Under the pieces are notes generated by a model that saw only the letters and a program-made list of their open reading frames with translations, had not been told where the DNA came from and made no database searches. The position numbers were made by a program, and so were the translations under genes. Below, piece by piece: positions 1,600 through 64,000 of a DNA stretch of 64,000 nucleotides. This stretch comes from Veillonella montpellierensis DSM 17217. Its GTDB lineage: Bacteria; Bacillota; Negativicutes; Veillonellales; Veillonellaceae. The stretch lies in contig NZ_AUFY01000012.1 in the NCBI RefSeq assembly GCF_000426745.1, forward strand, positions 1 to 64,000, given 5' to 3'. Positions within the stretch are counted from its first letter, which is position 1. Each line of letters starts with the position of its first letter.

Positions 1600-4161
1600 A
1601 TGAATCATATTTATAGAGTTATTTGGAGTAAGGTAAAACATTGTTATGTTGTTGTATCAGAAATTGCGAAACGAAATGGAAAATCATCGTCTAAAGTGAG
1701 TAGGACGGGTATAACTGTATTAGCGTTAGTGGGTACAGTTTCGATGGGCATTAGCGTATATGCAGATAATCCAACAGAAAATTCTACATTAACGGCAGAT
1801 CAACAAGCTGTGTATAAAGCGGTTTTGCATGAATTGGAAAATAATGGAGTTCATTATGTGTCGGTGAAAGGCGAGAGCCAAGAGAACGATTCCAATTATA
1901 AAAATGACGGTGCAAAGGGTAAAGGTGCCGTAGCTATCGGCGAAAAGGCACTGGCAGCTAAAGGCGGTACCGTGTCTATCGGCAGAAATGCACACATCGA
2001 AGGCAACGGCGGTAATGCGGACGGTGAAGGCAGTGTAGCTATCGGTGACAACGCTTTAATTACGACGAACGGGTTGGATTTGGCAAGTATTGCCTTGGGA
2101 AAGAATGCAAAGGTCTTGAACGGTAGCGGTAAGCAGGAACGTGGATTGAGTTTTATGCCGGATAATTTTGATGCACCCGGATTTTTCGGTAGAGGAAATA
2201 CCTTGCCGAAAAATGCGGACAAAGTTCCGGGCGGTATCGCTATCGGTACAAATTCTTATGCCCGTACGGGAAGCATTCAGTTGGGACATCATACCTTTGA
2301 CGGATACAAAATGGGCGGTATCGATGTAACGAATGCAAATGAAGAAGCCAATATTGTCGGTATGACCACTGTCGGTACGAATACATACAATAAAGGTGCT
2401 CTTGCCAATATGTACGGTGCATATTCCATTATTACCGGTGATTTTACCGGTGAGGGCGGCATGAATAGTTGGACATACGGACCGCAAAATTTCGGTGCCA
2501 ATGTGGTCGGCTCATTGAACAGTATCCGTTCTAAAGGACATAGCGGATCATCCGGTGTGGCAAACAGTATTGTCGGTGTGGCAAATACGGTAGAAAATGC
2601 CAACGGTACTTTGGTGTACGGTGCGGGAAATAAGATTACCAATTCAATTAAGGCTATTAGTGCTGATGCAGGATTTACTACGTTAAAAAACTGGGACGAC
2701 ACGGTTACCGGGTTGCAAAAGGTGATTAAGAATTCTAATTCCGGCGGTGCTGTATTGGCTATCGGTGGCGGTAACGTAGCGGATTATGTACGTCATTCAC
2801 AATTGGTCGGCGTCAATAATACCGTGACTGGTACGGAAAATAAAGTCAGCGAATTTAATATGGTAGACGGCTATAAAAATACGGTAACGAACGGTACGCA
2901 CGTAACCATGATCGGTTCTGAAAATACTGCAACCGACAGTGAATCTACTTTGGTCATGGGCGACAAGCAAAAAGTGACTAAGGTCAAACACGGTGTATTG
3001 CTAGGTTCGCAAGATGCGGAAAAAGAAACGACCGTAGCCGATATCGTTGCTATCGGTCATAATGCGCATGTGGAAAAAGAAGGCGGCATAGCGTTGGGCA
3101 GTTATTCCATAGCTTCGATAGATAAAGGCATAATCGGGTATGATCCGCTTACCGGAAAAGCAAGTACGGAAACTTCCGCAATTTGGAAAGCAACAAAGGC
3201 GGCACTTTCTGTCGGAAGTACTGTAGATAAAAATAATTTAATAACTCGCCAGATTACGGGAGTTGCCGCCGGTACGGAAGACACCGATGCGGTCAACGTA
3301 GCGCAGCTCAAAGCTTTGGAAAAGAAATTGTCTAAAGGTGGTTCAAATGTAGAAGTTGTCGGCGATCAAAATACGGGTATAGTTGTAGAAAAGGATCCGA
3401 AAGAAAATACATCAACACCGTCAACGGGCGGAACGACAACTACTCCGGCAGCTGAAAGCAAGACCGTTTATAAAGTAAAACTCGACAAGAAAGTTGACGT
3501 GGGAAATATTTCCATAAACGGTACTGAAAATAAAGAAACCATTACAATCGGTAAAGGCGACAACAATGTTATTGTAAATAATACTGGACTTACAATTGCA
3601 AAAGGTCCTTCTGTTACAAATACCGGTATCAATGCCGGAAATAAAAAGATTACGAACGTTGCAGATGCTACCGAAGACAGCGATGCAGTTAACTACAAGC
3701 AGTTGAAGCAAGCAACTCAAGGAATGAATGAAATGTTCGGAGAAATCAATCGTGTGGGTGCACACTCTGCAGCACTTGCGGCACTTCAAACGCTCGACTT
3801 CGATCCCTACAACAGAAGTCAAATTATGGCAGGAGTTTCAACTTACAAAGGGCAACAGGCGATTGCACTTGGAGTTGCACACTACTCAAATGAAAACACA
3901 CTTGTGCATGCCGGTTTATCCTATGCAGGAGAAAGCGATCTCATGGCAAATGTAGGTATTTCCTATAAATTCGGTTCAGAAGAAGATAAAAAATATCTTC
4001 ACGAAAGAAATAAAAAATTGTCGCAATATAAAGATGGTCCGATAAGTTCAGTATACATATTGCAAGACGAAGTAAAACAATTGCTTGAAGAAAATAACGG
4101 AATGAGAAAAGAAATAGAAGAACTGAAAGCCGTAATAAAAGAAATACAAAACAAAGCATAG
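1600..4161 (+). CDS. Trimeric autotransporter adhesin (YadA/Hia type), mosaic
   Basis: This 853-residue surface adhesin would trimerise and be anchored in the outer membrane. Residues 1-55 form an extended signal peptide (ESPR-like start MNHIYRVIWSKVKHCYVVVSE, hydrophobic core, cut after VYA). From about residue 105 come YadA-like head repeats of the type AVAIGEKALA and SVAIGDNALI. A stalk with NVAQLK and AVNYKQLK connector motifs follows, then a Pro/Thr-rich linker near 605-625. The four-strand YadA anchor spans roughly residues 710-792 (AHSAALAALQTLDFDP ... GISYKFG). Unusually, a 61-residue coiled coil follows the barrel. The start has a strong GGGGAG site. Codons from about base 1890 on are GC-rich (GGC, GTC, CCG), unlike the first 280 bases and all neighbours, which suggests an imported passenger. 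Confidence 0.93.
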   Translation: MNHIYRVIWSKVKHCYVVVSEIAKRNGKSSSKVSRTGITVLALVGTVSMGISVYADNPTENSTLTADQQAVYKAVLHELENNGVHYVSVKGESQENDSNYKNDGAKGKGAVAIGEKALAAKGGTVSIGRNAHIEGNGGNADGEGSVAIGDNALITTNGLDLASIALGKNAKVLNGSGKQERGLSFMPDNFDAPGFFGRGNTLPKNADKVPGGIAIGTNSYARTGSIQLGHHTFDGYKMGGIDVTNANEEANIVGMTTVGTNTYNKGALANMYGAYSIITGDFTGEGGMNSWTYGPQNFGANVVGSLNSIRSKGHSGSSGVANSIVGVANTVENANGTLVYGAGNKITNSIKAISADAGFTTLKNWDDTVTGLQKVIKNSNSGGAVLAIGGGNVADYVRHSQLVGVNNTVTGTENKVSEFNMVDGYKNTVTNGTHVTMIGSENTATDSESTLVMGDKQKVTKVKHGVLLGSQDAEKETTVADIVAIGHNAHVEKEGGIALGSYSIASIDKGIIGYDPLTGKASTETSAIWKATKAALSVGSTVDKNNLITRQITGVAAGTEDTDAVNVAQLKALEKKLSKGGSNVEVVGDQNTGIVVEKDPKENTSTPSTGGTTTTPAAESKTVYKVKLDKKVDVGNISINGTENKETITIGKGDNNVIVNNTGLTIAKGPSVTNTGINAGNKKITNVADATEDSDAVNYKQLKQATQGMNEMFGEINRVGAHSAALAALQTLDFDPYNRSQIMAGVSTYKGQQAIALGVAHYSNENTLVHAGLSYAGESDLMANVGISYKFGSEEDKKYLHERNKKLSQYKDGPISSVYILQDEVKQLLEENNGMRKEIEELKAVIKEIQNKA

Positions 4162-4911
4162 AATCAACCGAATAAAGATAAGACAGAAAAAGAATTCTTG
4201 GATAGCTTGAAAGGTAAGGATGGTAAAGGTACGGGGGTATCTGTCGATATACAAGGAGATCCTACAGGTATTCAGGTTACATCTAAGACTAACAACGATA
4301 AGACAACATATACGGTGAAACTAGACAAGAAAATCAATGCTGGTAAGATTAGCATTGATGGATCTGACACAAATGGTACTATTACAGGACTTTCCAATAC
4401 GACATGGGATGTGAAACTAGTACAACAGGATCGTGCTGCGACAGAAGGTCAGTTACAACAAGTATCACAATCTATGCAAAATAGCCTAGCGAATATGGGA
4501 CAACGTATGAATCGTGCAGGTGCTAGTAATGCGGCACTCGCTGCCTTACATCCATTAGATTTTGATGCGCAGGATAAATGGAATTTTGCGGCCGGCTTTG
4601 GCAACTATATGGGGGCCAATGCATTAGCACTTGGTGCTTTCTATCGTCCAAATGAAACAACACAATTCTCGATAGGTGGATCGTTTGGTAACGGAGAAAA
4701 TATGATTAACGCTGGTGTATCATTGAAAGTGGGTAAAGGGTCTTTACCAATTTCCTCAAAGGTGGAAATGGCACGTCAATTAACGGCGCAAGCACAGGAA
4801 ATTGAAAGATTGCAACAAAAAGATAAAGAACGTGATATGGAAATGGCGGCTATGAAAGAACGAGAAGCACAATTATGGAAGGAATTGCAAAATTTAAAAC
4901 ATAATCATTAA
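4162..4911 (+). pseudogene. Orphan C-terminal anchor of a second trimeric autotransporter
   Basis: The frame of the upstream adhesin continues directly after its TAG (4159-4161) with no intervening frame change. It encodes 249 residues: a short stalk (TTYTVKLDKKINAGKISIDG), a connector-like stretch, a YadA anchor (AGASNAALAALHPLDFD ... NAGVSLKVG) and a 58-residue coiled-coil tail. There is no signal peptide, and the first start-like codon (TTG 4198) has no convincing Shine-Dalgarno site, so independent expression as a surface protein is unlikely. Codon use is AT-rich like the rest of the chromosome. It most likely is the remaining 3' end of the resident adhesin gene after recombination replaced its middle part. 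Translation by stop readthrough cannot be excluded. Confidence 0.8.
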
Positions 4912-44344: not shown

Positions 44345-46075
44345 ATGAGTGCTGATGATTTATTTCTTAAGTTTTTTAAAGAAGAAGGAAGGACCTATCT
44401 ATTGGGTGTTGCCTTATTAATTATTATTAATCTTATCTTTTTAGAAATGCCTAAATTAATTGGTGAAGCAGTAGACACATTATCTCATGGTAAAGAAGGA
44501 TTAAGTGAATATATACTTCTTTTTGTGGCTATTATGATTGCGGTTACTCTTTTGAAAAGCATATCGAGACGGATGCTTCTGGGATCTATTCGTAAAATGG
44601 AATATGTATTTCGCAGTAATTTGTGCAATCATGCATTAGCCATACCCGTTAGCTATTATGAAGAACATGGACCTGGTAAGGTTATGACTTTGATGACGAG
44701 TGATGTTACATCATTGCGCGTATCTCTTGGGTTAGGTGTTATGATTGTTGTGGATGCTATTTTTTTTGGACTATGTTCTTTTTATCATTTAGTAGATAAT
44801 GTATCTCTCCCCTTAGCATGTATCATTATGAGCCCCATGCCATTTATTATAATTGGTGTGTTACTAGTTGGGCAGACTATGCGAAAAAAACAACGACAAG
44901 CACAGTCAACTTATAGTCGACTTACTGAATTCTCTCAAGAAATTCTACTGGGGATTAACGTGATTCGTGCCTTTAATAAAGAGTATATGGGAGCATTGCG
45001 ATTTTCTACTATTAATCAAGATAATTATGAAAAGAACTTAGAAGTGTCTTTTTTAGATGCTTTGTTAAAGCCCTTAACTTTCATTGCTCCTTTGAGTTGT
45101 TTAGGTATTAGCATATATGTGTGTGGCACTATGGTAGTTCATGAATCTATGACTGTAGGGAAATTTGTTAGTGTCAATGCATATATTATGCTGATGATTG
45201 GGCCGTTAATGGGGTTAGGGTCCTTAGCATCTGTTATGCAAAAAGGATTGGCTTCGTTTGATCGGATTAGTAAATTTTTATCTATTCCTAAGGAAGTTAT
45301 TACAGGCCATGATAAACCATTGTTACCACTTGATACAGTACGTCTAGATAATCTTACATTTTCTTATGGACATAATACACATCCAGCACTTACTAATGTA
45401 TCTATGGAAATACCAGCAGGTGCATTTATTGGAATTGTTGGAGGACCAGGGTCCGGAAAAACAACATTGTTTAAATTACTGACTCGTATTCAAGAACCTA
45501 TGGAAGGACATATTTTTATCGGTAATCAAGACATTGTGGATATTCCATTAGCTGTGTTAAGGCGTAGCATTGCCTATGTGGAACAAGAAGGAAATGTTCT
45601 TGGTACAACGATTCGTGACAATATTGCGTTTGGAGAAGTCGGAAAAAATCACATATCGGTAGAAGAAGCAGCTCGTCGTGCCAGTTTATATAGGGATTTA
45701 GGGGAAAGGATTTCTAATCATAAGAAGGGCGCATTAAAGGAAAGAGGAAACAATTTATCTGGAGGACAGAAACAACGAGTGACCATAGCGAGAGGGCTAT
45801 ATAAAAATGCTCCTTATGTATTACTTGATGATAGTTTTTCTGCATTAGATACGATGAGCGCAGCTACTATTATAGAAACATTAAGGACTACACAACAACA
45901 AACAATTATATTTATTTCGCAACGGATAGAGGCGATTCGACAGGCAGATATGATTTATGTGATGGATGCAGGACAGATAGTAGAGCGTGGTACACATCAA
46001 GAATTAATGAATCAAAAAGGATTATATTATCAGTTATATGCTAAACAAGAAGAAAGTGAGGTGTATCATGCCTAG
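44345..46075 (+). CDS. ABC exporter subunit with degenerate ATPase site (half-transporter 1)
   Basis: This 576-residue half-transporter has an N-terminal six-helix membrane domain (about 1-310) and a C-terminal nucleotide-binding domain. Walker A is GGPGSGKTT and the signature LSGGQKQR is intact. The catalytic Glu after Walker B is replaced by Asp (YVLLDDSFSALD), and the H-loop His is replaced by Gln (FISQRI). This is the pattern of the non-catalytic partner in heterodimeric exporters such as BmrC or LmrC. The gene overlaps the next by 8 bases, so both are coexpressed. The substrate is unknown; multidrug or lipid export is usual for the family. Confidence 0.92.
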   Translation: MSADDLFLKFFKEEGRTYLLGVALLIIINLIFLEMPKLIGEAVDTLSHGKEGLSEYILLFVAIMIAVTLLKSISRRMLLGSIRKMEYVFRSNLCNHALAIPVSYYEEHGPGKVMTLMTSDVTSLRVSLGLGVMIVVDAIFFGLCSFYHLVDNVSLPLACIIMSPMPFIIIGVLLVGQTMRKKQRQAQSTYSRLTEFSQEILLGINVIRAFNKEYMGALRFSTINQDNYEKNLEVSFLDALLKPLTFIAPLSCLGISIYVCGTMVVHESMTVGKFVSVNAYIMLMIGPLMGLGSLASVMQKGLASFDRISKFLSIPKEVITGHDKPLLPLDTVRLDNLTFSYGHNTHPALTNVSMEIPAGAFIGIVGGPGSGKTTLFKLLTRIQEPMEGHIFIGNQDIVDIPLAVLRRSIAYVEQEGNVLGTTIRDNIAFGEVGKNHISVEEAARRASLYRDLGERISNHKKGALKERGNNLSGGQKQRVTIARGLYKNAPYVLLDDSFSALDTMSAATIIETLRTTQQQTIIFISQRIEAIRQADMIYVMDAGQIVERGTHQELMNQKGLYYQLYAKQEESEVYHA

Positions 46076-47843
46076 ACCATCAGCGACGCAATTTGATGTC
46101 ACTATAAGACGAATCAGTCAAAAAAATGATATGCTCCTTTTATCTTCTTTGCTTACATATATTAAGCCTCATATGGGCAAGCTAGCTATAGGTGTGATGG
46201 CCCTTATTATAACGCTAGGAGTAGAATTAATTCGTCCTATTATTATTCGATACGTTATTGATGAGGGGTTTGTTCATAAAGATTTTCACATTATATTATT
46301 ATGTGCTATGGCGTATATCATATCAATTGCTTTAAGCTTTATCTTTATGTTTTTACAAAATTATTTATTAGAGCGATTTGGTCAAACGATTATTTTAGAG
46401 CTTAGAAATATTGTGTTTTCTAAAATTTTACATAAGCGCGTAAACGATTTTGAAAGTATTCCTACAGGGAATTGGGTGACACGGATAACGAATGATATTG
46501 AGTCATTACGGACATTATACACGGATGTTTTAATTAAGCTCGGCAGTAATATAGTGTTTATTTTTGGAATATTAGGCGCTATGTATTATTTGAACGTCTA
46601 TCTAGCACTTGTAATGACGGCGATAGTACCAATTATGGGAGTCATTATTTTTGTATACCAAAAGTTTTCAAGAAAGGCATTTCGTGGTGTTCGCCTTGAA
46701 CTTGCTGCCTCCAACTCATCGGTACAAGAAATTTTAAATTTTATTGTGACGATTAAAACATATGTGGCTGAAAATTATATTAGTCATTACTATGATGAAG
46801 TAAGTAAGCGATACTTACAAGCTGGATTACAAGAGGTTAAGACATTTGCCATTTTTCGACCTATTGTAGATGGATTGTTTTTTGTAGCAATTATTGCTGT
46901 ATTTTCATTTACTAATTATTTCGATTCTGTTACAGATGCAGGCGTGGTATTTGCATTTATTCAATATATGGATAAATTTTTCCAGCCTTTAAAAGAAATA
47001 GCTGAAAAGTATAATTCCTTACAGAGTTCCTTAGCAGGCGGAGAACGATTAGTGCCATTATTACAAGAAACTAGTACCGGTCGAAACGATGTCATAGAAG
47101 TGCCTAAAGAGTTAGCGTCGGTTCATAGTATTGAATTAGAGCATGTATATTTCTCGTATGACGACTCTGAAAATTATGTACTAGAGGATATTTCCATGAC
47201 AATTCAAGGCGGTGAGTTTATTGGTATTGTTGGCGTATCTGGAGCAGGAAAATCAACATTGCTTTCATTGCTGATGGGATTATATCAACCTACGAAAGGG
47301 CGTATTCTGATTAATCATATAGATATTAAGAATTATGATGGAGCGGTTCTTCGAGAAGTAATTGGCTATGTATTTCAAAGTGCTCATTTGTTTAAGGGAA
47401 CGATTAGAGAAAACATATCTTTATATGACGATGCTATTACCGATGATAAGATTATAGCTGCTACAGATAAGGTGGGGCTACATTCGATGATAATAAAGTT
47501 GCCAGAAGGATATGATACACCAGTAGGATATTTGGGGTCATTGTTATCAAGCGGTGAAAAGCAATTGTTAGCTTTTGCAAGGACATTATTAAAAGAAAAG
47601 CCAGTTTTATTGCTGGATGAAGCTACATCAAATATCGATAGTCAAACGGAACAAAAGATTCAGGACTCTATCGCATCTATTCGTGGTGACAAGACGGTGA
47701 TTAGCATTGCACATAGAATATCGACTATTAAAGATGCTGATTGTATATATGTGTTAGAAAAAGGTAAGCTCATTGAATCTGGTAGCTATCAATCCTTAAT
47801 CCAACAAAAGGGAGTATTTTATGATTTGTGGGCACACAGATGA
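46068..47843 (+). CDS. ABC exporter subunit with canonical Walker B (half-transporter 2)
   Basis: The 591-residue partner has a 45-residue cytosolic lead, a six-helix membrane domain and an ATPase with Walker A GVSGAGKST. Its catalytic Glu (VLLLDEATSNID) and switch His (SIAHRIST) are intact. Its signature is degenerate (LSSGEKQ instead of LSGGQ). With the upstream subunit this gives one competent site (this Walker A/B with the partner LSGGQ) and one degenerate site. GTGAGG 6 bases before ATG 46068 fixes the start, inside the upstream gene. Confidence 0.92.
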   Translation: MPRPSATQFDVTIRRISQKNDMLLLSSLLTYIKPHMGKLAIGVMALIITLGVELIRPIIIRYVIDEGFVHKDFHIILLCAMAYIISIALSFIFMFLQNYLLERFGQTIILELRNIVFSKILHKRVNDFESIPTGNWVTRITNDIESLRTLYTDVLIKLGSNIVFIFGILGAMYYLNVYLALVMTAIVPIMGVIIFVYQKFSRKAFRGVRLELAASNSSVQEILNFIVTIKTYVAENYISHYYDEVSKRYLQAGLQEVKTFAIFRPIVDGLFFVAIIAVFSFTNYFDSVTDAGVVFAFIQYMDKFFQPLKEIAEKYNSLQSSLAGGERLVPLLQETSTGRNDVIEVPKELASVHSIELEHVYFSYDDSENYVLEDISMTIQGGEFIGIVGVSGAGKSTLLSLLMGLYQPTKGRILINHIDIKNYDGAVLREVIGYVFQSAHLFKGTIRENISLYDDAITDDKIIAATDKVGLHSMIIKLPEGYDTPVGYLGSLLSSGEKQLLAFARTLLKEKPVLLLDEATSNIDSQTEQKIQDSIASIRGDKTVISIAHRISTIKDADCIYVLEKGKLIESGSYQSLIQQKGVFYDLWAHR

Positions 47844-48036: not shown

Positions 48037-48852
48037 ATGGAAGTTATTAAATCAAAAGAAAATAATACAGTTAAGCATATTCGCTCTTTATATAAAAGAA
48101 AGTATAGAGAAAAATATGGAGAATATGTAGTAGAAGGCGTTAGAGCTGTTAGGGATTTGCTAAGAAAAAAGAAAATACATACTATTTGTATTGCCGTATC
48201 TCAAGTTTCATCTAGTGCCATTATAGAAATTATTGAATTGGCAAATGCACACTATTGTATAGTACATCTTATAGAAGATAGAATATTCTCAACAATCGAG
48301 CAGACTGTGCAAGGACAGGGTATATTAGCAATTGCTAATAAAGATGAATATGCATTACATACAGTTGTACCAGAGAAGGGAATATACTTGGTGTTAGATC
48401 GTATACAAGATCCTGGCAACTTAGGCACTATAATACGAACAGCTGTTTCTGCTGATGTAAAGGGCGTTATTTTAACTAAAGGAAGCGTTGATCCCTATAA
48501 TGAAAAGTGCATTCGTAGTACTATGAGTGCCATTAGTGAAATTCCTATTTACGATAATATAGATGAACAAGAGGTAATTCAGTTTATACAGAAGTTTTCA
48601 CTACATTCTTATGTAACAGCATTAGAACGAGCTGTAACATATGACTCACTGACATATACAGTGCCGGCGGTGTTAATTATGGGTAATGAAGCTAATGGTG
48701 TTTCACAGAAATTACAAGATGCATGTGATCATAGCATTGTGATTCCTATTATAGGTAATATTGAATCATTAAATTTAGCAGTTGCTACGGGTATATGTTT
48801 ATATAAAATGAGGGAGTCTTTTTATCATGAATCGCCAAAAGAAAGCATCTAA
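48037..48852 (+). CDS. TrmH/SpoU-family RNA 2'-O-methyltransferase
   Basis: The 271-residue protein has an N-terminal L30e-like substrate-binding domain (about 1-100). The SPOUT knot carries LDRIQDPGNLGTIIRTA (motif 1), VLIMGNEANGVS (motif 2) and IPIIGNIESLNLAVATGICLY (motif 3). It is close to the RlmB/TsnR type that methylates 23S rRNA or tRNA ribose; the exact target is not readable. It ends inside the start of larB (26-base overlap), indicating a joint transcript. Confidence 0.9.
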   Translation: MEVIKSKENNTVKHIRSLYKRKYREKYGEYVVEGVRAVRDLLRKKKIHTICIAVSQVSSSAIIEIIELANAHYCIVHLIEDRIFSTIEQTVQGQGILAIANKDEYALHTVVPEKGIYLVLDRIQDPGNLGTIIRTAVSADVKGVILTKGSVDPYNEKCIRSTMSAISEIPIYDNIDEQEVIQFIQKFSLHSYVTALERAVTYDSLTYTVPAVLIMGNEANGVSQKLQDACDHSIVIPIIGNIESLNLAVATGICLYKMRESFYHESPKESI

Positions 48853-49504
48853 TGAATATATGGCTACGATTGACTGGAATCGTCAGGAACGTCAAGGCTT
48901 CCCAGAAGTGGTGTATTGTGAAGGAAAGACTGATGAACAATGTTGTTCTATTTTATCATCGTTAGCGAATACTTATGATGTGTGTATGGGTACTCGTGCG
49001 AGACCTAGTATATATAATCAGTTACTACCTTATATAAGTGATATACAGTATGATGAGTTAAGTCGTATAATCTATGTAAATCGAGTGCCTCTACATATCA
49101 ATGGAGATCGAACCATTGCTGTAGTTACCGCAGGTACTAGTGATATTCCTGTAGCGGAAGAAGCAGCGCTAACGGCAGAATTAATGGGCAATCAAGTGAA
49201 TCGTATTTATGATGTAGGTGTAGCTGGTATTCATCGCTTATTTTCTCGCCTTGATGAAATTCAAGAAGCTAATGTGGTCATTGCTGTAGCTGGCATGGAG
49301 GGCGCTTTAGTAAGTGTTTTAGGAGGTTTAATCAAAAAACCGTTGATTGCTGTGCCAACTTCAATTGGATACGGTGCTAATTTTCAAGGAGTGGCAGCGT
49401 TATTAGCAATGCTTAACTCATGTGCTGCAGGCGTAGGTGTGGTGAATATTGACAATGGCTTTGGCGCAGGTAGATTGGCACATATTATTAATAGTCAACG
49501 GTAG
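48827..49504 (+). CDS. larB: Nickel-pincer cofactor biosynthesis protein LarB
   Basis: LarB carboxylates nicotinic acid adenine dinucleotide and splits off AMP, the first step toward the nickel-pincer nucleotide of lactate racemase. The 225-residue protein shows the PurE-like core TAGTSDIPVAEEAALTAELMG, VAGMEGALVSVLGGL and PTSIGYGANFQGVAALLAML, all typical of LarB. It overlaps the upstream methylase gene and is followed immediately by a LarC-type protein. Lactate is the main carbon source of Veillonella, so racemisation would make both isomers usable (inference). Confidence 0.93.
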   Translation: MNRQKKASNEYMATIDWNRQERQGFPEVVYCEGKTDEQCCSILSSLANTYDVCMGTRARPSIYNQLLPYISDIQYDELSRIIYVNRVPLHINGDRTIAVVTAGTSDIPVAEEAALTAELMGNQVNRIYDVGVAGIHRLFSRLDEIQEANVVIAVAGMEGALVSVLGGLIKKPLIAVPTSIGYGANFQGVAALLAMLNSCAAGVGVVNIDNGFGAGRLAHIINSQR

Positions 49505-49510
49505 GTGAAT

Positions 49511-49948
49511 ATGGAAGAAACAATTGTTAAAGTAGAAACCAATATTGATGATATGAACCCTGAACAATATGAATATATTATTGATTTATTATTAAAAGCT
49601 GGTGCGAATGATGTGTGGTTAACACCTATTATTATGAAAAAAGGGAGACCAGCTATTTTAATCTCAGTTTTATGTAAAGATAGTTTACTTACTGCTGTTG
49701 CACATATTTTATTCACTCATACAACAACGATTGGTCTTCGATGTATAGATTATCACCGTATTATTTGTGAACGACAATATAGGGTTTTTTATTATGAAGG
49801 CATGCCTGTAGGCATAAAAGAGGCATATTATCAAGGACAGCGTGTTAATATTTCGTTGGAATATGAAGATATGAAACGCATTGCGCAGGTGAAGAAGGTT
49901 TCTATACAGGATATTGAACATAGTATATGGAAACAAATCAAGTTATAA
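49511..49948 (+). CDS. Stand-alone C-terminal half of LarC (LarC2-like)
   Basis: The 145-residue protein matches the C-terminal domain of LarC, the CTP-dependent nickel insertase. It shows VKVETNIDDMNPEQYEYIIDLLLKAGANDVWLTPIIMKKGRP, given here only as its landmarks NIDDM and WLTPI-MKKGRP. The N-terminal LarC1 half is absent, because the sequence directly upstream is larB in a finished frame. GTG 49505 or ATG 49511 can be the start; AGG 5 bases before 49511 is weak. In Lactobacillus LarC is joined from LarC1 and LarC2 by a frameshift. Here the half protein is either a remnant or acts with a LarC1 encoded elsewhere. Confidence 0.82.
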   Translation: MEETIVKVETNIDDMNPEQYEYIIDLLLKAGANDVWLTPIIMKKGRPAILISVLCKDSLLTAVAHILFTHTTTIGLRCIDYHRIICERQYRVFYYEGMPVGIKEAYYQGQRVNISLEYEDMKRIAQVKKVSIQDIEHSIWKQIKL

Positions 49949-50074
49949 GTAGTTCTTTTTTACTAGGTGCGATTTTATTGCTATTGTAGCATGTATTTGT
50001 TAAAATAACGTATATCTTTTTGGAAGAGATAATCAATAACTAATAATTTAATTAAAATGTAAAAGAAGGATTAT

Positions 50075-50926
50075 ATGATTAAACTGATTGTTAATGCGGA
50101 TGATTTTGGTATTCATACATCTGTTAACAAGGGCATTGTGAAGGGGCATTGTGAGGGAATTATTACAAGCACCTCTTTGTTGGCTAATGGAAGCGAATTT
50201 GAATCTGCTGTGGACTTGGGGTTTACTTATCCTAATTTAGGGATTGGTATTCATACTTGTTTAGTGGGAGGATTGCCACCTGTGTGTAATCCTGATGAGG
50301 TATCATCATTATTAACGAGTGAAGGTGTATTGCCTACTACATATTTGGACTTTATCAAACGATGTATGATGAGAACGATTCGTTATGATGAGTTATATAA
50401 AGAATTAGCAGCGCAATTTAAAAAAATAATAGATACGGGACTTCCTATTACACATGTAGATGGACACCAACATATACATATATTGCCACAGGTGTTGCCG
50501 ATTGTTGTGGATTTGATGAAACAATACGGTATTAAAAAAATTCGCATACCACGAGAATATAAGACCTTTGTTAATGGCGTGTACAATCCTATTCGCTTTT
50601 TAGGAAAGGTAGGCTTATCGACGGTAGCCGATATGGCAAAGCGAACAGTAGCACAAGAAGATATTAAGAGTCCCGATTATTTTTGGGGGATGATTAATGG
50701 GGGCCAGCTTATTGAACCAGCATTAGCGACAATTTTATCATCCATATCTAAGAAAGCAGGTGTTCATGAAATTATGACACACCCTGGTCTATCAGATAAT
50801 GTGCTAAATCAAAAATTTGATTGGCATTATCATTGGGAAGAAGAATTAAAGAGTATGATGTCAATTTCTATCGGCGAATATATTCGTCGTCACAATATAG
50901 CATTGATTAATTATGGTGAGTTATAA
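50075..50926 (+). CDS. YdjC/ChbG-HpnK family carbohydrate deacetylase
   Basis: The 283-residue protein begins LIVNADDFGIHTSVNKGI, where the two Asp form the metal site. It carries HVDGHQHIHILP, with the family histidines, and ends with a HPGLSDN-type segment. The family removes acetyl groups from N-acetylated sugars (chitobiose, or sugar-lipids in hopanoid synthesis). The stop overlaps the start of the next gene (TAATG), which encodes a flippase-like membrane protein, so a lipid-linked sugar substrate is plausible. AGAAGGA precedes the ATG. Confidence 0.88.
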   Translation: MIKLIVNADDFGIHTSVNKGIVKGHCEGIITSTSLLANGSEFESAVDLGFTYPNLGIGIHTCLVGGLPPVCNPDEVSSLLTSEGVLPTTYLDFIKRCMMRTIRYDELYKELAAQFKKIIDTGLPITHVDGHQHIHILPQVLPIVVDLMKQYGIKKIRIPREYKTFVNGVYNPIRFLGKVGLSTVADMAKRTVAQEDIKSPDYFWGMINGGQLIEPALATILSSISKKAGVHEIMTHPGLSDNVLNQKFDWHYHWEEELKSMMSISIGEYIRRHNIALINYGEL

Positions 50927-51927
50927 TGAATAAATTATTGAAGCGAGGCCTCATATTAGGAAGTGTGCTGATAGTAATTTCTTGTATCACAATATATTGC
51001 ACAGTTGATATTAAGGCGCTTACAATGCTATCAACATTTAATATGGAATCGATTTTATTAGCGGTCATAGCCTTATCCATAGGTATGTATTTTGACGGAC
51101 TTCGATTGCAGAGACTTGTCAGAATCGGTGGGTATCATTTACCCATTAAAGCGGTGTTGCGTGTTATTTTTGGCAATTATTTTATGGCCTTATTAACGCC
51201 TGGCGCTAGTGGTGGGGCAGTGGCACAAGTACTTATTTTGAAAAGCTATGGCGTGCCTATTGCAAAAGCAACACCCATAGTGCTTATTCGCACCATATTT
51301 TCTATTTTGTTTTTAATTATTATGATGCCATTTATTTTTTTACATGATACGATGACGATACCTTACATTTCTAAAGATGTGTTATGGAAATTATCATTGT
51401 TATTGGTTTTATGTGTATGTATGGGGATTTATTTTTTTAAAACAGAACTTTGCAAACGGTTAGTGTATCGTTTGGCACGATATATAAAAAAGGATAACCC
51501 TGATACATGGTTAATTAAATTAGAAGAAATAAACAGTGGATTCGCTTTGCTATATGAGCATCCTATACAATCATTCATTGTATTTATAGAATCAGGGATA
51601 AGTTTACTGTGTTTGTATTGCATTGCTCCTGCCTTGATGTGGGCTTTTTCCACTACTACATTATCAGTGGTGACGATTTTAGAAAGAATGATATTACTTA
51701 ATTTGATATTATATTTTGCACCCACACCAGGAGGAACGGGTATAGCGGAAGGATTATTTGTATTTTTGTTAGCTAGTTTTGTGCCAGATGGAACAATTGG
51801 ACTTATTGCCGTAGGTTGGCGAGTTATTGCAGAATATATACCTTTTTTTATCGGTATGTATGCAGTATTAACTTTATATGGAAAACAGTTTGTAGCGGGT
51901 ACTGTTACAACATCGGATAAGTTGTAG
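50926..51927 (+). CDS. UPF0104 / lysylphosphatidylglycerol synthase-like flippase domain membrane protein
   Basis: The 333-residue protein has about eight membrane segments and the UPF0104 landmarks SIGMYFDGLRLQRLVR, GNYFMALLTPGASGG and FAPTPGGTGIAEG. The same fold forms the flippase part of MprF. It lacks the cytosolic aminoacyltransferase domain. It is translationally coupled to the deacetylase gene upstream, which suggests a joint role in modifying or moving a glycolipid across the inner membrane (inference). Confidence 0.85.
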   Translation: MNKLLKRGLILGSVLIVISCITIYCTVDIKALTMLSTFNMESILLAVIALSIGMYFDGLRLQRLVRIGGYHLPIKAVLRVIFGNYFMALLTPGASGGAVAQVLILKSYGVPIAKATPIVLIRTIFSILFLIIMMPFIFLHDTMTIPYISKDVLWKLSLLLVLCVCMGIYFFKTELCKRLVYRLARYIKKDNPDTWLIKLEEINSGFALLYEHPIQSFIVFIESGISLLCLYCIAPALMWAFSTTTLSVVTILERMILLNLILYFAPTPGGTGIAEGLFVFLLASFVPDGTIGLIAVGWRVIAEYIPFFIGMYAVLTLYGKQFVAGTVTTSDKL

Positions 51928-51942
51928 ATGGGAGGTTCTAGT

Positions 51943-52392
51943 GTGACTCAGTCAAAAAAAGATAAATTCTACCTTGTACAAGAAGATATTTTACCAGAAG
52001 CAATTAAGAAAACGATTAAGGTAAAAGAAATTTTAAAAATGGGTGAAGTTAAGACGATTAATGAAGCGGTGGAACGTATGAATCTAAGTCGCTCTGCGTA
52101 CTATAAATATAAGGATTATGTATTCCCTTTTTTTGAAATTGCACAAGGGAAAATCGTATCTATTGCCGTATCGATGTCAAATGATCCTGGTATGTTGTCT
52201 AGCGTTTTAAAAGCGATTGCCAGTCATAATGGAAGTATCTTAACAATTAATCAAGACATTCCTCTACAAGGTATTGCTAATGCGAGTATTGCTTTTGAAA
52301 CAAAAGACATGACCGGATCCTTGGAAGAATTATTGCAAGATATACGCAATATTAAAGGTATGATTAAGGTCGATATATTGGGACAAGCATAG
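51943..52392 (+). CDS. ACT domain protein (UPF0735 / ThrR-PheB type)
   Basis: The 149-residue protein has an N-terminal helix-turn-helix-like stretch (TINEAVERMNLSRSAYYKYK) and a C-terminal ACT domain (SIAVSMSNDPGMLSSVLKAI). It matches the UPF0735/PheB family. The Bacillus subtilis member, renamed ThrR, represses threonine biosynthesis genes. GGGAGG 7 bases before GTG 51943 sets the start. It lies directly upstream of hom and thrB, which supports a threonine-responsive regulatory role (inference). Confidence 0.85.
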   Translation: MTQSKKDKFYLVQEDILPEAIKKTIKVKEILKMGEVKTINEAVERMNLSRSAYYKYKDYVFPFFEIAQGKIVSIAVSMSNDPGMLSSVLKAIASHNGSILTINQDIPLQGIANASIAFETKDMTGSLEELLQDIRNIKGMIKVDILGQA

Positions 52393-52432
52393 TGTATGAA
52401 AACAGTGTGAATATAAAGAGAGTAGGTAACAT

Positions 52433-53722
52433 ATGAATTCTATAAAAATTGGTATATTGGGCTTTGGTACAGTCAGTCAAGGAACTTGTGAGCTATTAAT
52501 TGATAATGCAGAATTAATTTCTAAACGAATTAATACAAATATCACTATTGCTAAAATATTTATGAGAAATCCTAAAAAATATGAACATATTAGTTTGCCA
52601 GATGATACTAAGGTAGTTAGTGATGCACAAGATATATTGCAAGATCCAGAAATTTCTATCGTTGTAGAGTTGATGGGAGGAACTGATTTTGCTCGTGAGT
52701 GTATTGAAAAAGCGTTAGAAAACGGTAAAAATGTAGTGACTGCTAATAAGGATTTAATGGCAGAAGCTGGACCATACTTGTTAGATTTGGCAAAACGTAA
52801 TCATGTGGATTTACGATTTGAAGCAAGTGTGTTAGGCGGTATTCCTATTATTAGGACTCTATATGAATCGCTAGGAGGCAATAAAATAACTGAGTTAGTG
52901 GGAATTATGAATGGCACTACTAATTTTATCTTAACTAAGATGACTGAAGAAGGGACTAGTTATACTGAAACGCTAAAAGAAGCACAAAGCTTAGGTTATG
53001 CCGAAGCAGATCCTACTGCGGATGTTGAGGGGTATGATGCGGCACGTAAATTAGCAATTTTATCTTCTATTAGCTTTAATCGTAGAATTTTCTTTGAAGA
53101 TGTTGAGGTAGAAGGCATTAGTCATATTGATACAGCGGATATTGAATTCGGCAAAGAATTTGGTTATAACATCAAGTTATTAGGCATTGCGAAAGAAACA
53201 AAAAAAGGATTATCTCTTAATGTATACCCTGCATTTATTCCACTCACCCATCCCTTGGCATCTGTAAGAGGATCGTATAATGCGATTTATGTGAAGGGGA
53301 ATGGCATTGATGACGCTATGTTTTATGGTCGTGGTGCCGGTAGCTTACCTACAGGTAGTTCTGTAGTCAGCGATATTATGGAAATTGCTAAAAATATCAA
53401 TTTTAATAGTACTGGCCGATTAGCACCATTTTACTTTGAAAAGAAATCAATATATGCACCAGGAAAAATTTCTTCATCCTATTATATTCGTTTAGTAGTA
53501 GAAAATAAGACGGGCGTATTAGCAAAAGTTACTACGAAATTAGCAGAGCAACGCATTTCTGTATTGTCGGTATTACAACGCAATGATGATCCAGAAAAAG
53601 CGGTAATTGCTATAGTTACTTCTTCTTGTCCACGATCTTATATTTTAAATGTTTTAGACGCCTTTAATAATTTACGAGTGGTGAAGAAAGTTAGTAGTGT
53701 TATTAGAATTATGGGTGAATAA
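52433..53722 (+). CDS. hom: Homoserine dehydrogenase
   Basis: Reduces aspartate semialdehyde to homoserine for threonine and methionine synthesis. The 429-residue protein has the NAD(P) fold GILGFGTVSQG, the central VELMGGTDFA and VTANKDLMAE, the catalytic region IMNGTTNFIL and GYAEADPTADVEGYDAARKL. A C-terminal ACT domain (RLVVENKTGVLAKVTTKLA) is likely to sense threonine. AGTAGG precedes ATG. thrB begins 2 bases after its stop; thrC is not in the window. Confidence 0.97.
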   Translation: MNSIKIGILGFGTVSQGTCELLIDNAELISKRINTNITIAKIFMRNPKKYEHISLPDDTKVVSDAQDILQDPEISIVVELMGGTDFARECIEKALENGKNVVTANKDLMAEAGPYLLDLAKRNHVDLRFEASVLGGIPIIRTLYESLGGNKITELVGIMNGTTNFILTKMTEEGTSYTETLKEAQSLGYAEADPTADVEGYDAARKLAILSSISFNRRIFFEDVEVEGISHIDTADIEFGKEFGYNIKLLGIAKETKKGLSLNVYPAFIPLTHPLASVRGSYNAIYVKGNGIDDAMFYGRGAGSLPTGSSVVSDIMEIAKNINFNSTGRLAPFYFEKKSIYAPGKISSSYYIRLVVENKTGVLAKVTTKLAEQRISVLSVLQRNDDPEKAVIAIVTSSCPRSYILNVLDAFNNLRVVKKVSSVIRIMGE

Positions 53723-53724
53723 TC

Positions 53725-54651
53725 ATGAAAACTATTACCGTACAAGTTCCAGCTACGAGTGCTAACTGTGGACCTGGGTTTGATTGTTTAGGATTGGCAT
53801 TACAATTATATAATGTGTTTACTTTTGAATTGAATGAAGAAGCAACTAGTTATTCATATACATTTAAAGGTTTTGGTGCAGATATATTAGCTCATGAAGA
53901 TACTAGTCGTAATTTAATTGGACGCGCTATGTATGAATTATTTTATGCTGTGGGAGAAAAACCAAAGTTTGGACACATTATATCCGATAGTAACATTCCT
54001 CCTTCACGTGGATTAGGTAGTAGTTCGACTGCGATTGTTGGAGGCTTATTGTTAGCCAATGCGTTAGTAGAAAAACCACTTTCAAAAAAAGAATTACTTA
54101 CATTAGCCCATCGTATGGAAGGACATCCAGATAATGTAGCTCCTGCTATTTTTGGGAATTTATGTTGTGCTTTAGGCAATGATAGAGAAGTCGTTAATAC
54201 AGTGATTACTGTGCCAGAAGAGTTGTCATTTGCCGTAGTGGTACCAGAAGTACTGGTATCGACTGAATATGCACGTACGGCTTTGCCATATACCATTGAT
54301 TTTAAAGAAGCGGTTGCCAATATAGGTTATGTGTCATTGCTTATTTCATCTATGGTTACTAGGGATCTTACTAATCTGCAATGGGCCTTACAAGATAATC
54401 TACATGTGCCATATAGAAAAAAAATAATTCCTTGTTGTGATGAGGTGTTTTCTGTAGCAAGAGATAAAGGTGCTTATGGCGCTACTATTAGTGGATCTGG
54501 TTCTACGCTTATTGCGTATTGTCATCATGAAGTGGCTTTAGATGTAGCAAAGGCAATGGGCAATGTATTTTCTTCACAAGACATCAAAAATACAGCATAT
54601 GTGTTAAAAGCGGATGTAATTGGTGCAAAAGTGATTTCACGTACATTATAA
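53725..54651 (+). CDS. thrB: Homoserine kinase
   Basis: A 308-residue GHMP kinase that phosphorylates homoserine. The N-terminal VPATSANCGPGFDCLGLALQ, the ATP-binding loop PPSRGLGSSSTAIVGG, HPDNVAPAIFG and the late GATISGSGSTLIAY are all diagnostic of ThrB. It follows hom directly, forming an ACT regulator-hom-thrB operon. Confidence 0.97.
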   Translation: MKTITVQVPATSANCGPGFDCLGLALQLYNVFTFELNEEATSYSYTFKGFGADILAHEDTSRNLIGRAMYELFYAVGEKPKFGHIISDSNIPPSRGLGSSSTAIVGGLLLANALVEKPLSKKELLTLAHRMEGHPDNVAPAIFGNLCCALGNDREVVNTVITVPEELSFAVVVPEVLVSTEYARTALPYTIDFKEAVANIGYVSLLISSMVTRDLTNLQWALQDNLHVPYRKKIIPCCDEVFSVARDKGAYGATISGSGSTLIAYCHHEVALDVAKAMGNVFSSQDIKNTAYVLKADVIGAKVISRTL

Positions 54652-54751
54652 ATAGTGTTTAATTAGCATGTAGAGTCTTAGAAACTTCGTGTTTAAGTAT
54701 ACAACATGTTACTATTGTATAGTAAAAATTCATTTATTTTAAATAACATCA

Positions 54752-54760
54752 TGCTATAAT
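54752..54760 (+). promoter_or_regulatory. Extended -10 promoter for htpX
   Basis: TGCTATAAT lies 45 bases before ATG 54805. No strong -35 box was seen. Confidence 0.5.
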
Positions 54761-54804
54761 ATGTATATATTATAGTATGATTAACTATTATGATGGGAGG
54801 ATGT

Positions 54805-55659
54805 ATGAACAATATAAAAACAGCAGCATTAATGGCATTATTATCGGCTTTATTGATGGCTATTGGTCAATATGTAGGCGGCTTACATGGGTTAATGGTG
54901 ATGTTTATTATTTCTATTGGAATGAATGTATTTAGTTATTGGAATAGTGATAAATTAGTGCTTAGAGCTTATAATGCGAGAGAAGTACAAATGTCATCAA
55001 ATCCAGAATTGGTTTCTATTGTGAAACAATTAGCTATGAATGCACATCTTCCTATGCCGAAAGTATATATCATTGATTCTGAAATACCGAATGCTTTTGC
55101 TACTGGTCGTAATCCAGAACATGCGGCAGTAGCTGTTACTACAGGTATTATGAATTTATTAACCCATGATGAAATTGAAGGTGTATTAGCTCATGAGTTA
55201 ACGCATGTACAACATAGAGATACTTTGATTAGTACGATTGCAGCTACGATGGCAGGGGCGATTGCGATGGTTGCCAATGTGTTACAATTTGCCGCTTTAT
55301 TTGGTAGCCGTGACGATGATAGAGAGAGTAATCCTATTGCTCTATTAGGAATGATTATTTTGGCACCTATCGCAGCATCTTTAATACAAATGGCTATATC
55401 TCGCTCTAGAGAATATTTGGCTGATGAAGGTGGCGCTCGTATTAGTGGGAAACCATTATCATTAGCTTCTGCATTAGCTAAAATTGATCATTATGCTAAA
55501 TATGGTGCTCTGCCTCATGCAAGTAATGCGACAGCGCATATGTTTATTGTTAATCCATTAAGTGGGGTTAAAGATTTTGCTAGTAATTTATTTAGTACGC
55601 ATCCTAGTACAGAGGAACGTATTAAACGATTACGCATGTTAGCTTCGACTGTAAAATAG
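54805..55659 (+). CDS. htpX: Zinc metalloprotease HtpX
   Basis: A membrane-bound M48 protease that removes damaged membrane proteins. The 284-residue protein has two N-terminal membrane helices, the zinc site HELTH near residue 130 ([11 protein letters not shown]), two further membrane helices and the third ligand in [18 protein letters not shown] with 4-base spacing supports ATG 54805 rather than the upstream Mets. ndk follows closely. Confidence 0.95.
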
Positions 55660-55670
55660 GAGTGGTTATT

Positions 55671-56081
55671 ATGGAACAAACATTAGTGTTGATAAAACCA
55701 GATGGAGTGCGACGTAGATTGTGTGGAGAAATCCTAAATCGCTATGAACGTAAGGGGCTTAGTATTGTGGCGATGCAGTTGATGCAGGTGCCTAGGTCAT
55801 TGGCAGAGGACCATTATGTAGAACATAAGAATAAACCATTCTTTGGTGAGTTAGTTGATTTTATTACCTCTGGACCTGTACTTGCGTTTGTATTATCTGG
55901 CGAGCATGCTATTGCTACAGTACGCACATTAAATGGAGCTACTAATCCACAGGATGCTGTACCTGGTTCTATTCGCGGTGATTATGCATTAACGATGGAT
56001 GCTAATGTAGTACATGCTTCTGATTCAATAGAGGCTGCTACTAGAGAAATAGCACTTTGGTTTCCTAATATTACATTGTAA
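55671..56081 (+). CDS. ndk: Nucleoside diphosphate kinase
   Basis: Ndk equalises nucleoside triphosphate pools through a phosphohistidine. The 136-residue protein has the N-terminal [12 protein letters not shown] and the active-site His in NVVHASDS (usually NxxHGSDS; here Ala replaces Gly), with GSIRGDYAL before it. AGGAG at 55659-55663 supports ATG 55671. Confidence 0.95.
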
Positions 56082-56116
56082 TATGTATAGTATTAAATAA
56101 AGGAGATGGATTATAT

Positions 56117-56617
56117 ATGGCAAATGTATATACTAAAACAGGTGACAAAGGTACAACTGGTTTATATACAGGTGAGCGTATTAATAAAGCATCATTACGT
56201 GTAGAAGCATATGGTACAGTTGATGAAGTACAAGCTTTTTTGGGATTAGCAAGAGCGCATGGAACAAATGAAAGTGTCAAAGAGGCTTTGCTACAAGTTG
56301 AAAAAGAATTATGGATGCTTATGGCAGATATTGCTAGCTTACATAAAGAACCTACTATTACAGATGAGTATGTAGTAGAATTAGAAAAAATTATCGATGC
56401 TTTTGATGCACAATTATCTCCTCTTAGTGCATTTGTATTGCCAGGTGAAAGTCAATCATCAGCGTATTTGCATGTGGCCAGAACGATTGTACGTCGTGCA
56501 GAACGCGATTTGTGGGCTTTATTCGGAGAAGAAGGGGCACATGAATCAAATTTAAAATATTTAAATCGACTATCTGACTTATGTTTTATATTAGCGCGGG
56601 TTGAGGAAGAACTATAA
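56117..56617 (+). CDS. Cob(I)alamin adenosyltransferase, PduO type
   Basis: Transfers the adenosyl group of ATP to cob(I)alamin to form coenzyme B12. The 166-residue helical protein has the N-terminal ATP loop VYTKTGDKGTTGLYTGERI and the later RTIVRRAERDLWAL and LKYLNRLSDLCFILAR signatures. AGGAGATGG precedes ATG. It lies about 500 bases before the cobalamin operon and serves the same pathway. Confidence 0.94.
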   Translation: MANVYTKTGDKGTTGLYTGERINKASLRVEAYGTVDEVQAFLGLARAHGTNESVKEALLQVEKELWMLMADIASLHKEPTITDEYVVELEKIIDAFDAQLSPLSAFVLPGESQSSAYLHVARTIVRRAERDLWALFGEEGAHESNLKYLNRLSDLCFILARVEEEL

Positions 56618-56644
56618 TTTTTAGATACGTGGCAAGCGTCATAT

Positions 56645-56687
56645 AAAAAGCTATGTTGCTGGTATATAGGACAACATAGCTTTTTAT
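56645..56687. terminator. Bidirectional terminator
   Basis: AAAAAGCTATGTTG / CAACATAGCTTTTT, a 14-bp perfect stem with a 13-nt loop. A-runs and T-runs on both sides serve the adenosyltransferase gene (plus) and the hypothetical gene at 56745 (minus). Confidence 0.9.
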
Positions 56688-56744
56688 ATATTGTTATAGT
56701 GAGTAGTGTGATACAGTATGAATGTAAAACAACTAGTGAAATGC

Positions 56745-57074
56745 TTAGTGTGGTTTATTTAACATATCTTCAGGACTAGGGTAGAAAAAGAATACGTTGG
56801 GAATTTGATATTGGAATTTTTCTCTCAATAAGGCAGAAAATGTTGTTTCAAAACTAATAATTTCTGAAGAGGACAAGATCGAGTCTTCTACAAGTGCTAA
56901 TAATTGTGCTTCTACTGAGGGCGCATTTTCAGGCAGTAGTTCTTTATCAAGAGGCAGATTTACGATGACACGCACGGTGGCGATATAATTAGTCTCAGGA
57001 TCTTCTACCATAACTCTATATGTATTTTCCCATAAAGTGGCCATTAATTTGATTTTCATATTCATTATTTCCAT
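56745..57074 (-). CDS. Hypothetical protein, 109 residues
   Basis: No family is recognised. The protein is soluble in appearance, with alternating strands in the first half (KLMATLWENTYRVMVEDPE, then YIATVRVIVNLPLD) and an acidic, Leu-rich middle. AAAGGAG with 7-base spacing before the ATG and a terminator after the stop suggest a real gene. It is divergent from cobU (68-bp gap) and could share its control region. No signal peptide or membrane segment is seen. Confidence 0.75.
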   Translation of the reverse strand: MEIMNMKIKLMATLWENTYRVMVEDPETNYIATVRVIVNLPLDKELLPENAPSVEAQLLALVEDSILSSSEIISFETTFSALLREKFQYQIPNVFFFYPSPEDMLNKPH

Positions 57075-59234: not shown

Positions 59235-60259
59235 TGGCATCTATAGGAGAATTTTTTACGAATATTACAGGGACTACAGCATTTTTATGGTATATGGAAC
59301 ATACCTATTGTTTTATACCAATGTGGGCATTGCTATTAGATGCACTGATAGGAGATCCTAATAGTAAATATCATCCTGTTGTGGGAATTGGAAAAGTTAT
59401 TTCGTTTTATGAAAATTTACTATATATGAGATCTGATACACCTAAGAAAAAAGTAATGTATGGTGGTATTGCAGTATGTATGACATTGCTAACAGTAGTT
59501 ATTATCGCAACTATCCTTATATATATTGCCAGTTTAATTGCAACGTGGGCCTCGTATATTGTTCAAGTTCTATTGGTGTATATATCGATCAGTCCTCGCT
59601 CTTTGGCGGAAGCTGGATATCGTATTGCTACATTACTTAAAAACAATGATATTGAACAAGCGCGGGTTCGTGTTGGATGGATTGTAGGACGTAGGACCGA
59701 TGAACTTGATGAAAGTGAAATTACTCGCGCTACCATTGAGACAATTGCTGAGAATACTGTTGATGGGATCGTATCTCCTTTATTGTTCTTTGCTGTATTT
59801 GGACCTGTAGGCGCTATTTTTTATAGAGCGGCCAATACATTAGACTCTATGATCGGGTATAAAAATGAACGATATATTTTTTTCGGTCGTATAGCAGCAA
59901 AATTTGATGATTTCACTAATTATATTCCAGCACGAATATCTTTTATATTATTAGTGATAGCCGCATACATTTGTGGATTTGACTATAAACAAGCATGGAA
60001 GTTGGGATTAAGAGATGCTCATAAGCATCCAAGTCCTAATGGTGGTTATGCAGAAGCACCTGTTGCAGGGGCATTACATATTCGACTGGGTGGATATAAT
60101 CAGTATTTTGATACAGTTACATTTAGAGAGTATATGGGTGAGGCACAAGAAATTATGCGTGGCATTCATATTTATCGTACTATACGATTAATGTACACGG
60201 CTTCAATATTAGCAGGTATACTTTCAATAATCATTGCATGTGGGGTGGTATCATTATGA
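59234..60259 (+). CDS. cbiB: Adenosylcobinamide-phosphate synthase CbiB
   Basis: A membrane protein that joins aminopropanol phosphate (from CobD) to adenosylcobyric acid. The 341 residues have five or more membrane segments and the conserved WALLLDALIGDPNSKYHPVVG, TIAENTVDGIVSPL, DSMIGYKNERY and HPSPNGGYAEAPVAGAL. The N-terminus is about 25 residues longer than usual before the first motif. The stop overlaps cobS by four bases (ATGA). Confidence 0.95.
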   Translation: MASIGEFFTNITGTTAFLWYMEHTYCFIPMWALLLDALIGDPNSKYHPVVGIGKVISFYENLLYMRSDTPKKKVMYGGIAVCMTLLTVVIIATILIYIASLIATWASYIVQVLLVYISISPRSLAEAGYRIATLLKNNDIEQARVRVGWIVGRRTDELDESEITRATIETIAENTVDGIVSPLLFFAVFGPVGAIFYRAANTLDSMIGYKNERYIFFGRIAAKFDDFTNYIPARISFILLVIAAYICGFDYKQAWKLGLRDAHKHPSPNGGYAEAPVAGALHIRLGGYNQYFDTVTFREYMGEAQEIMRGIHIYRTIRLMYTASILAGILSIIIACGVVSL

Positions 60260-60999: not shown

Positions 61000-61193
61000 C
61001 AACTTGATAGAATTAGTAGCTTATATTGTATGGATATACATGCTTGATAATACTGATATATTCTTTGATGAATCGAAAAGTATGAAATTCATGCCTTCAA
61101 ACTATTAGCAATGTCTATGAAAACGGCTTATAAAGATAATGTGTAGTTATTTTAATTTCTAGTAATATTATGTATAGAAAAGGAGAGCTAATT

Positions 61194-62072: not shown

Positions 62073-62163
62073 ATGTATTGACAGCGATTAGCTAGAGTTA
62101 TTACAATAAAATTATTGCTAAGATGATAACGTAGTAGAATATGTGATTTTATTTATAGAAAGG

Positions 62164-62185
62164 AGTCCGATAGGAATATCGGACT
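62164..62185 (+). promoter_or_regulatory. Hairpin between the Shine-Dalgarno site and start codon of cobD
   Basis: AGTCCGATA-GGAA-TATCGGACT is a perfect 9-bp stem with a GNRA-type tetraloop. It begins within the AAAGGAG ribosome site (62159-62165) and ends 8 bases before ATG 62194. Unfolded, the spacing is 28 bases; folded, it drops to about 8. Confidence 0.75.
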
Positions 62186-62193
62186 ATTATTGT

Positions 62194-63922: not shown

Positions 63923-63937
63923 TAGAGAAAGCCTTAT

Positions 63938-64000
63938 ATGAGAATTGATAAATTTTTAGCGAACAAAGGATTAGGAAGTCGTAAAGACGTTCATAGACTA
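63938..64000 (+). CDS. S4-domain pseudouridine synthase (RsuA/RluB type), N-terminal fragment
   Basis: The last 63 bases encode MRIDKFLANKGLGSRKDVHRL, 21 residues that match the start of the S4 RNA-binding domain in 16S/23S rRNA pseudouridine synthases. The gene runs off the window edge. AGAGAAAG 8-16 bases before the ATG is a modest ribosome site. The catalytic domain is not visible, so the exact member (RsuA or RluB) is open. Confidence 0.7.
   Translation, partial: MRIDKFLANKGLGSRKDVHRL

Follow-up and report, generated by a model that had tools for sequence, protein, structure and literature searches.

The window, by which I mean the whole stretch of 64,000 nucleotides analyzed here, is the start of contig C10 in the 1.87 Mb genome of Veillonella montpellierensis DSM 17217, and close to its left end a single open reading frame at 1600-4161 on the forward strand encodes a product of 853 amino acids whose predicted domains place it among the trimeric autotransporter adhesins (type Vc). 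Above the Pfam cut-offs it contains an ESPR (PF13018, 60.9 bits against a cut-off of 25, 1.6e-16, residues 1-47), a YadA head (PF05658, 29.8 bits over the whole protein against a cut-off of 25, with no individual stretch passing alone), a coiled stalk (PF05662, 81.1 bits, two stretches) and a YadA anchor (YadA_anchor, PF03895, 53.7 bits against a cut-off of 22.7, 2.3e-14, residues 737-791), and residues 717-788 also match PDB chain 2lme (Adhesin yadA) at 9.1e-8. Behind the anchor, a sub-threshold bZIP match (E 0.0076) at residues 821-850 suggests a coil, and no SLH domain was found in a Pfam search of the protein (the PDB entries 8bys and 8bym are presumably V. parvula OmpM). The parts of the locus are as follows.

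1600-1785, forward strand: resident-like 5' end with ESPR and signal peptide, from the Pfam ESPR match and similarity to own and sister genes; cleavage site placed by eye
1786-1850, forward strand: pre-head linker (LTADQQAVYKAVL...NGV), from similarity to the adhesin loci L060 and L061
1851-3807, forward strand: apparently exchanged passenger, comprising heads of the YadA type, a neck and a stalk and ending where the YadA anchor begins, from identity to Dialister micraerophilus (locus L059)
3808-4161, forward strand: membrane anchor, from the YadA_anchor match, probable C-terminal coil, and stop codon at 4159-4161
4162-4911, forward strand: probable orphan, the 3' end left by an earlier adhesin, in frame after the stop, open for 249 codons and carrying a separate YadA anchor (5.4e-11)

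Downstream of the adhesin lies mutS, and upstream are two tRNAs and a transposase piece. The latter, at 3-266, where the contig begins, is the C-terminal part of an integrase-core transposase (rve_2 and rve_3 in Pfam), and the tRNA-Arg and tRNA-Trp genes at 572-739 on the reverse strand stand between it and the adhesin. The stretch at 818-1021 is 77% identical to L114:11874-12079 elsewhere in the genome and its minus strand gives broken transposase-like text (VERSHQED...), so that it is probably a decayed insertion element.

Relatives of the passenger in other families

Scanning named genomes brought up three relative loci, in D. micraerophilus DSM 19965 (G031), Megasphaera hutchinsoni KA00182 (G044) and Veillonellaceae bacterium DNF00626 (G032), the last two of which I take to be vaginal isolates. 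D. micraerophilus and DNF00626 belong to one genus (family f2), M. hutchinsoni to a further family (f3) and the genome of the window to f1. The preliminary description of this locus, made from the letters alone, had proposed searching the GC-rich segment against other genomes, and the search proved productive: 1851-3807 is 90.4% identical in DNA to L059:5985-7959 of D. micraerophilus over 1978 aligned columns (92% of amino acids over 651 codons), and 1849-3101 is 86.0% identical to M. hutchinsoni and 85.4% to DNF00626. Throughout, the genome searches (order, class, 3' anchor and further adhesins) scored the best 2-11 places per genome, and weaker matches may be missing from the counts. At the level of the order, nine of 61 genomes match 1600-4911 at 1e-30, including the genome itself, which is the only one from its genus; at the level of the class, 11 of 300 genomes drawn evenly from a larger group match 1851-3807 at 1e-20, again with the genome itself included. 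The distribution is patchy relative to how the species are related, since only three of these 300 genomes besides its own exceed 71% DNA identity (best two places scored in each), namely the three relatives named above, all of which belong to other families. No near-identical donor was found in these searches, and within the genome itself nothing else matches the passenger above 81% (few best places scored). Carriage on plasmids or phages was also considered: a phage search gave no match, and among plasmids three records each showed a single short match, 80-84% identical and confined to 3246-3314 in the neck/stalk module.

Synonymous sites carry the argument that this similarity reflects exchange. 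For the passenger, dS is 0.27 (dN 0.044) against D. micraerophilus over 651 codons, and 0.46 and 0.51 against DNF00626 and M. hutchinsoni, respectively, over 416 codons each. The housekeeping genes lepA and dnaK give dS of 3.6 and 1.5 against D. micraerophilus and of 1.4 and 1.2 (at least 1.19) against M. hutchinsoni, and lepA is saturated against DNF00626; the DNA identity of the two genes is 66-75% in five comparisons with the three relatives, and dnaK against DNF00626, computed apart from those five, gives 71%. Synonymous conservation at dS 0.27-0.51, set against values of at least 1.19 or saturation, goes beyond what selection on the protein explains, and the test thus argues that the passenger moved between families, and recently. 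The sister species agree with this at the level at which they were compared, which was one genome per species. Protein-level matches exist in all 13, with a head region of at least 300 residues at 41-48% amino acid identity in 10 of them, a short stretch of 96 residues at 60% in G013 and values of ~51% near the anchor, but a DNA match at 1e-30 in none of the 13. In the ten sister loci where 1.5 kb upstream of mutS was read by eye (another three of the 13 are oppositely oriented and stand outside this count), no adhesin was seen.

The opposing view would be vertical descent, in which an old adhesin was kept alike by selection and the rise in GC is simply the composition of adhesins. It can draw on the ten adhesin frames scanned in this genome (two of them halves of one gene), all of which have a GC3 of at least 0.27 against a median of 0.247 in ordinary genes, and on a passenger that is GC-rich relative to its host in all four hosts, but neither the conserved synonymous sites nor the absence of DNA matches in the sister species fits it, and I regard it as scarcely credible.

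What base composition can and cannot tell

Since composition was what first drew attention to this gene, it deserves its own consideration. The preliminary description had an AT-rich first part followed by a GC-richer middle, and this is correct, GC3 being 0.23 at 1600-1850 (19 of 83 codons) and 0.41 at 1851-3807 (266 of 652 codons; Fisher p = 0.0017). It placed the switch at about 1890, where the alignment puts the change at 1851 with foreign-type sequence possibly starting at 1786, and it had the GC-rich codons continue to about 4160, where GC3 has in fact fallen back to 0.27 at 3808-4161 (32 of 118 codons; p = 0.005 against the passenger); the orphan tail at 4162-4911 has 0.30. More importantly, it took composition as evidence of replacement, to be abandoned if other adhesins of the genome had the same composition, and over a span of 457 codons two of the ten own adhesin frames have GC3 values of 0.425 and 0.453. 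Ordinary genes do not: among 81 frames of at least 200 codons, chosen mechanically and with 60000-64000 sampled twice, none attains 0.425 and the maximum is 0.354. The same segment is equally out of place in the genomes of its relatives, with a GC3 of 0.424 in D. micraerophilus against a mean of 0.228 for the genes sampled there, and ~0.49-0.50 in the other two against means of 0.29-0.30. Composition is therefore weak as proof of import and was rejected as the deciding test; it marks borders and does not name a donor.

The simple equation of GC-rich with imported was tried on two further GC-rich adhesins of the genome, and it does not hold, because one of them, on contig C9 (L116), has no cross-family match (best few places per genome). 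The other, on contig C4 (L114:2279-6919, reverse strand, 1547 codons), does carry cross-family pieces, at 91% to M. hutchinsoni over 1408 bp and 90% to DNF00626 over 1292 bp. An AT-richer own adhesin (L115) gave same-family matches only, at its 3' end and at 73-83% (best few places per genome). Cross-family pieces are thus present in two of the four own adhesins tested, the window gene included. Beyond these four, the genome has adhesins on C6, C13, C20 and C22 and two more on C4, a long one where that contig ends and a split one. The split one, at L114:7952-9754 on the reverse strand, is divided into two frames, and parts of it are 80-81% identical to the window gene.

The two ends of the gene

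At the 5' end, 1600-1683 is 83% identical to the own adhesin L116 and 76-82% identical to sister species over 63-75 bp, whereas the ESPR region is 73% identical to L061 and 54-65% to the Dialister locus L059. The identity to Dialister then climbs from ~50% to an exact match of 33 bases that opens at 1851. Between the two lies the AT-rich linker at 1786-1850, which is 80% identical to L060 and 81% to L061 and so of the Megasphaera/DNF00626 type; among the fetched loci it precedes the head-entry text only in the window gene, L060, L061 and, more loosely, L135, and it is absent from the D. micraerophilus gene. Since it precedes the head entry in no own or sister locus searched by that text, foreign-type sequence may begin as early as 1786. 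The proposal of the preliminary description that a foreign passenger stands behind a native export signal is borne out by identity and dS on the one side and by the resemblance of the ESPR to own and sister genes on the other, so that its core idea is supported, and its interpretation as a whole in part. One could argue instead that the gene arrived entire and diverged or ameliorated at its ends alone, for which the linker of Megasphaera/DNF00626 type, despite its AT-richness, and the similarity of the L061 ESPR would speak. However, the ESPR is closer to own and sister genes than to either relative, the divergence would need to be restricted to just the two ends, and the D. micraerophilus gene carries after its anchor an SLH domain that was not found in the window gene, so that I consider this improbable.

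At the 3' end, the exchanged segment was first thought to extend to about 4160, but the Dialister similarity decays inside the YadA anchor near 3807, down to 45-58%, and the 3' end of the gene is of other origin: the best match for the 3' anchor, at 3788-3993, is an own adhesin on contig C4 at 80% (best few places per genome). Past the stop at 4159-4161 the frame is open again as far as 4911, and this part contains another YadA anchor. An adhesin of DNF00626 contains the intact stalk module SAYEIWRDHEENG-NQPNKDKTEKQFLESLKG, to which similarity in the window begins at exactly 4162, with 88% over 67 bp against 30% in the preceding 60 bases; 4165-4228 is moreover 86% identical to the genome's own contig C22, where the same module is intact. 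A match that begins in the middle of a module, in frame and at exactly this position implies that an older gene lost its front part at this locus, although no homology explaining the 4161/4162 junction was found. Short frames of this kind are rare, with five of 140 anchor matches in the 14 genomes of the genus falling in frames below 260 codons, 4162-4911 included.

Such a junction could in principle be an assembly chimera of several own adhesin genes, and six contigs do start or end within adhesin frames (C4, C6, C9 at both ends, C13, C20 and C22). However, the best other own match to the passenger is the 81% given above, the longest stretch over 4161/4162 shared with any of the eight fetched own adhesin loci is 13 bases, and the frame at 1600-4161 stays open, which makes a chimera highly improbable.

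A probable mosaic adhesin and how it may have formed

Bringing these observations together, I consider it very likely that the locus is a mosaic adhesin in which a Veillonella-like export end is joined to a passenger from a pool circulating among the families of Veillonella, Dialister and Megasphaera. Most probably, DNA would be taken up and then recombine within modules common to these adhesins, namely the head entry 'HYVSVKGESQ..NYKNDGA' at the 5' border and the opening of the YadA anchor, 'GAHSAALAAL', at the 3' border, so that the incoming cassette would replace the older passenger. As the present frame has an anchor and a stop of its own, the older 3' end would be left behind and stay as a putatively silent in-frame orphan, and the product, going by what is typical of the family, would be exported through the native signal and trimerized through the anchor, displaying a new binding head.

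In contact-dependent and Rhs systems (CdiA-CT/Rhs), the exposed end is supplanted by an incoming one and persists as an orphan module. The proposed displaced older end remaining as an orphan would be alike here, but above the Pfam cut-offs the gene and its orphan have adhesin domains only, with neither a toxin tip nor an immunity gene, and the displaced part would be a stalk and membrane anchor. Two neighboring adhesins fused by a deletion, a complete one with the 3' end of the next, would also produce such an arrangement without displacement of a tail. Veillonella adhesin clusters with duplications and reductions have been published (PMC7549365) and some sister species have short anchor frames, but no other adhesin adjoins 1600-4161 within the window and fusion alone leaves the cross-family passenger unexplained. 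I regard this as a serious possibility, if clearly below even chances, and it is compatible with the mosaic adhesin proposed above; a cassette displacing an older tail or a deletion fusing two neighbors may either of them account for the orphan.

It was originally suggested that surface binding changed in one event, and this is where the locus is most at odds with the preliminary description. M. hutchinsoni and DNF00626 have the same base, and D. micraerophilus another, at 126 sites; at 72 of them the window carries the D. micraerophilus base and at 54 that of the other two, and these sites fall into just 28 runs, so few being obtained in none of 20,000 shuffles (the test assumes independent sites and thereby overstates, so the figure is a guide). 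The stretch at 1929-2248 is mostly Megasphaera-like and that at 2249-2704 mostly Dialister-like, and the alternation points to repeated exchange rather than a single event. A direct Dialister donor in one event was rejected on the same grounds, and because the passenger is mosaic, the Dialister similarity ends inside the anchor and the locus bears a second, orphaned 3' end, no single clean event describes it.

Known systems and implications

The Veillonella trimeric autotransporters VtaA-I are likewise YadA-type, and domain swapping among Veillonella strains has been reported for them (Bechon et al., 2020; PMC7549365). The swaps described there are among Veillonella strains, whereas the passenger of the window is 85-90% identical in DNA to two other families, and the published adhesin cluster lies upstream of rRNA genes, whereas the locus here lies upstream of mutS. 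The same source describes an extra SLH or coiled-coil domain after the anchor in Veillonella adhesins (PMC7549365). Its Table 1 places adhesins of V. parvula SKV38 at 45453-46883 and 48397-56829, and in G012, a genome of the same genus as the window, these positions are in accord with the match to the window adhesin at 45537-46865 and with a frame of 2814 codons whose anchor lies at 56431-56604. An SLH domain comes after the YadA anchor in L059 and L061, the Dialister-family adhesins of D. micraerophilus and DNF00626. The D. micraerophilus adhesin as a whole (L059:5797-8559) is alike in its passenger and unlike in having another signal peptide, no pre-head linker and the SLH domain just mentioned. 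Domain swapping within Veillonella and an anchor-only gene are known; an account of passenger exchange across families of the Negativicutes was not found among the published matches listed, which were judged on title and the start of the abstract and lay mostly outside the subscription literature.

The partners and surfaces to which a bacterium attaches are decided by its adhesins, and adhesion functions of such Veillonella proteins are published (PMC7549365; PMC11633186). If passengers move between co-resident families, species names would not tell how a cell coaggregates or binds its host, and a survey of Veillonella adhesins that stays within the genus would overlook a source of variation. 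I would tentatively extend this, at somewhat less than an even chance, to the idea that human-associated Negativicutes of several families share one passenger pool that recombines at the head-entry and anchor modules, in which case the binding head would be a community trait and orphans a source from which older versions could be restored. The borders are module-sized and clear in sequence, which makes the process directly testable in isolates.

Finally, the Vpar_0045 gene of V. parvula consists almost only of a YadA anchor and is regarded by the authors who described it as non-functional (Poppleton et al., 2017; PMC5491611). The orphan described here differs from it in following a complete adhesin immediately and in the same frame, and in beginning mid-module. 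In two other genomes, frames of 155 codons (L152, G007 C1:58765-59229; L153, G009 C1:73260-73724) have ESPR-like text joined straight to a YadA anchor with no passenger in between.
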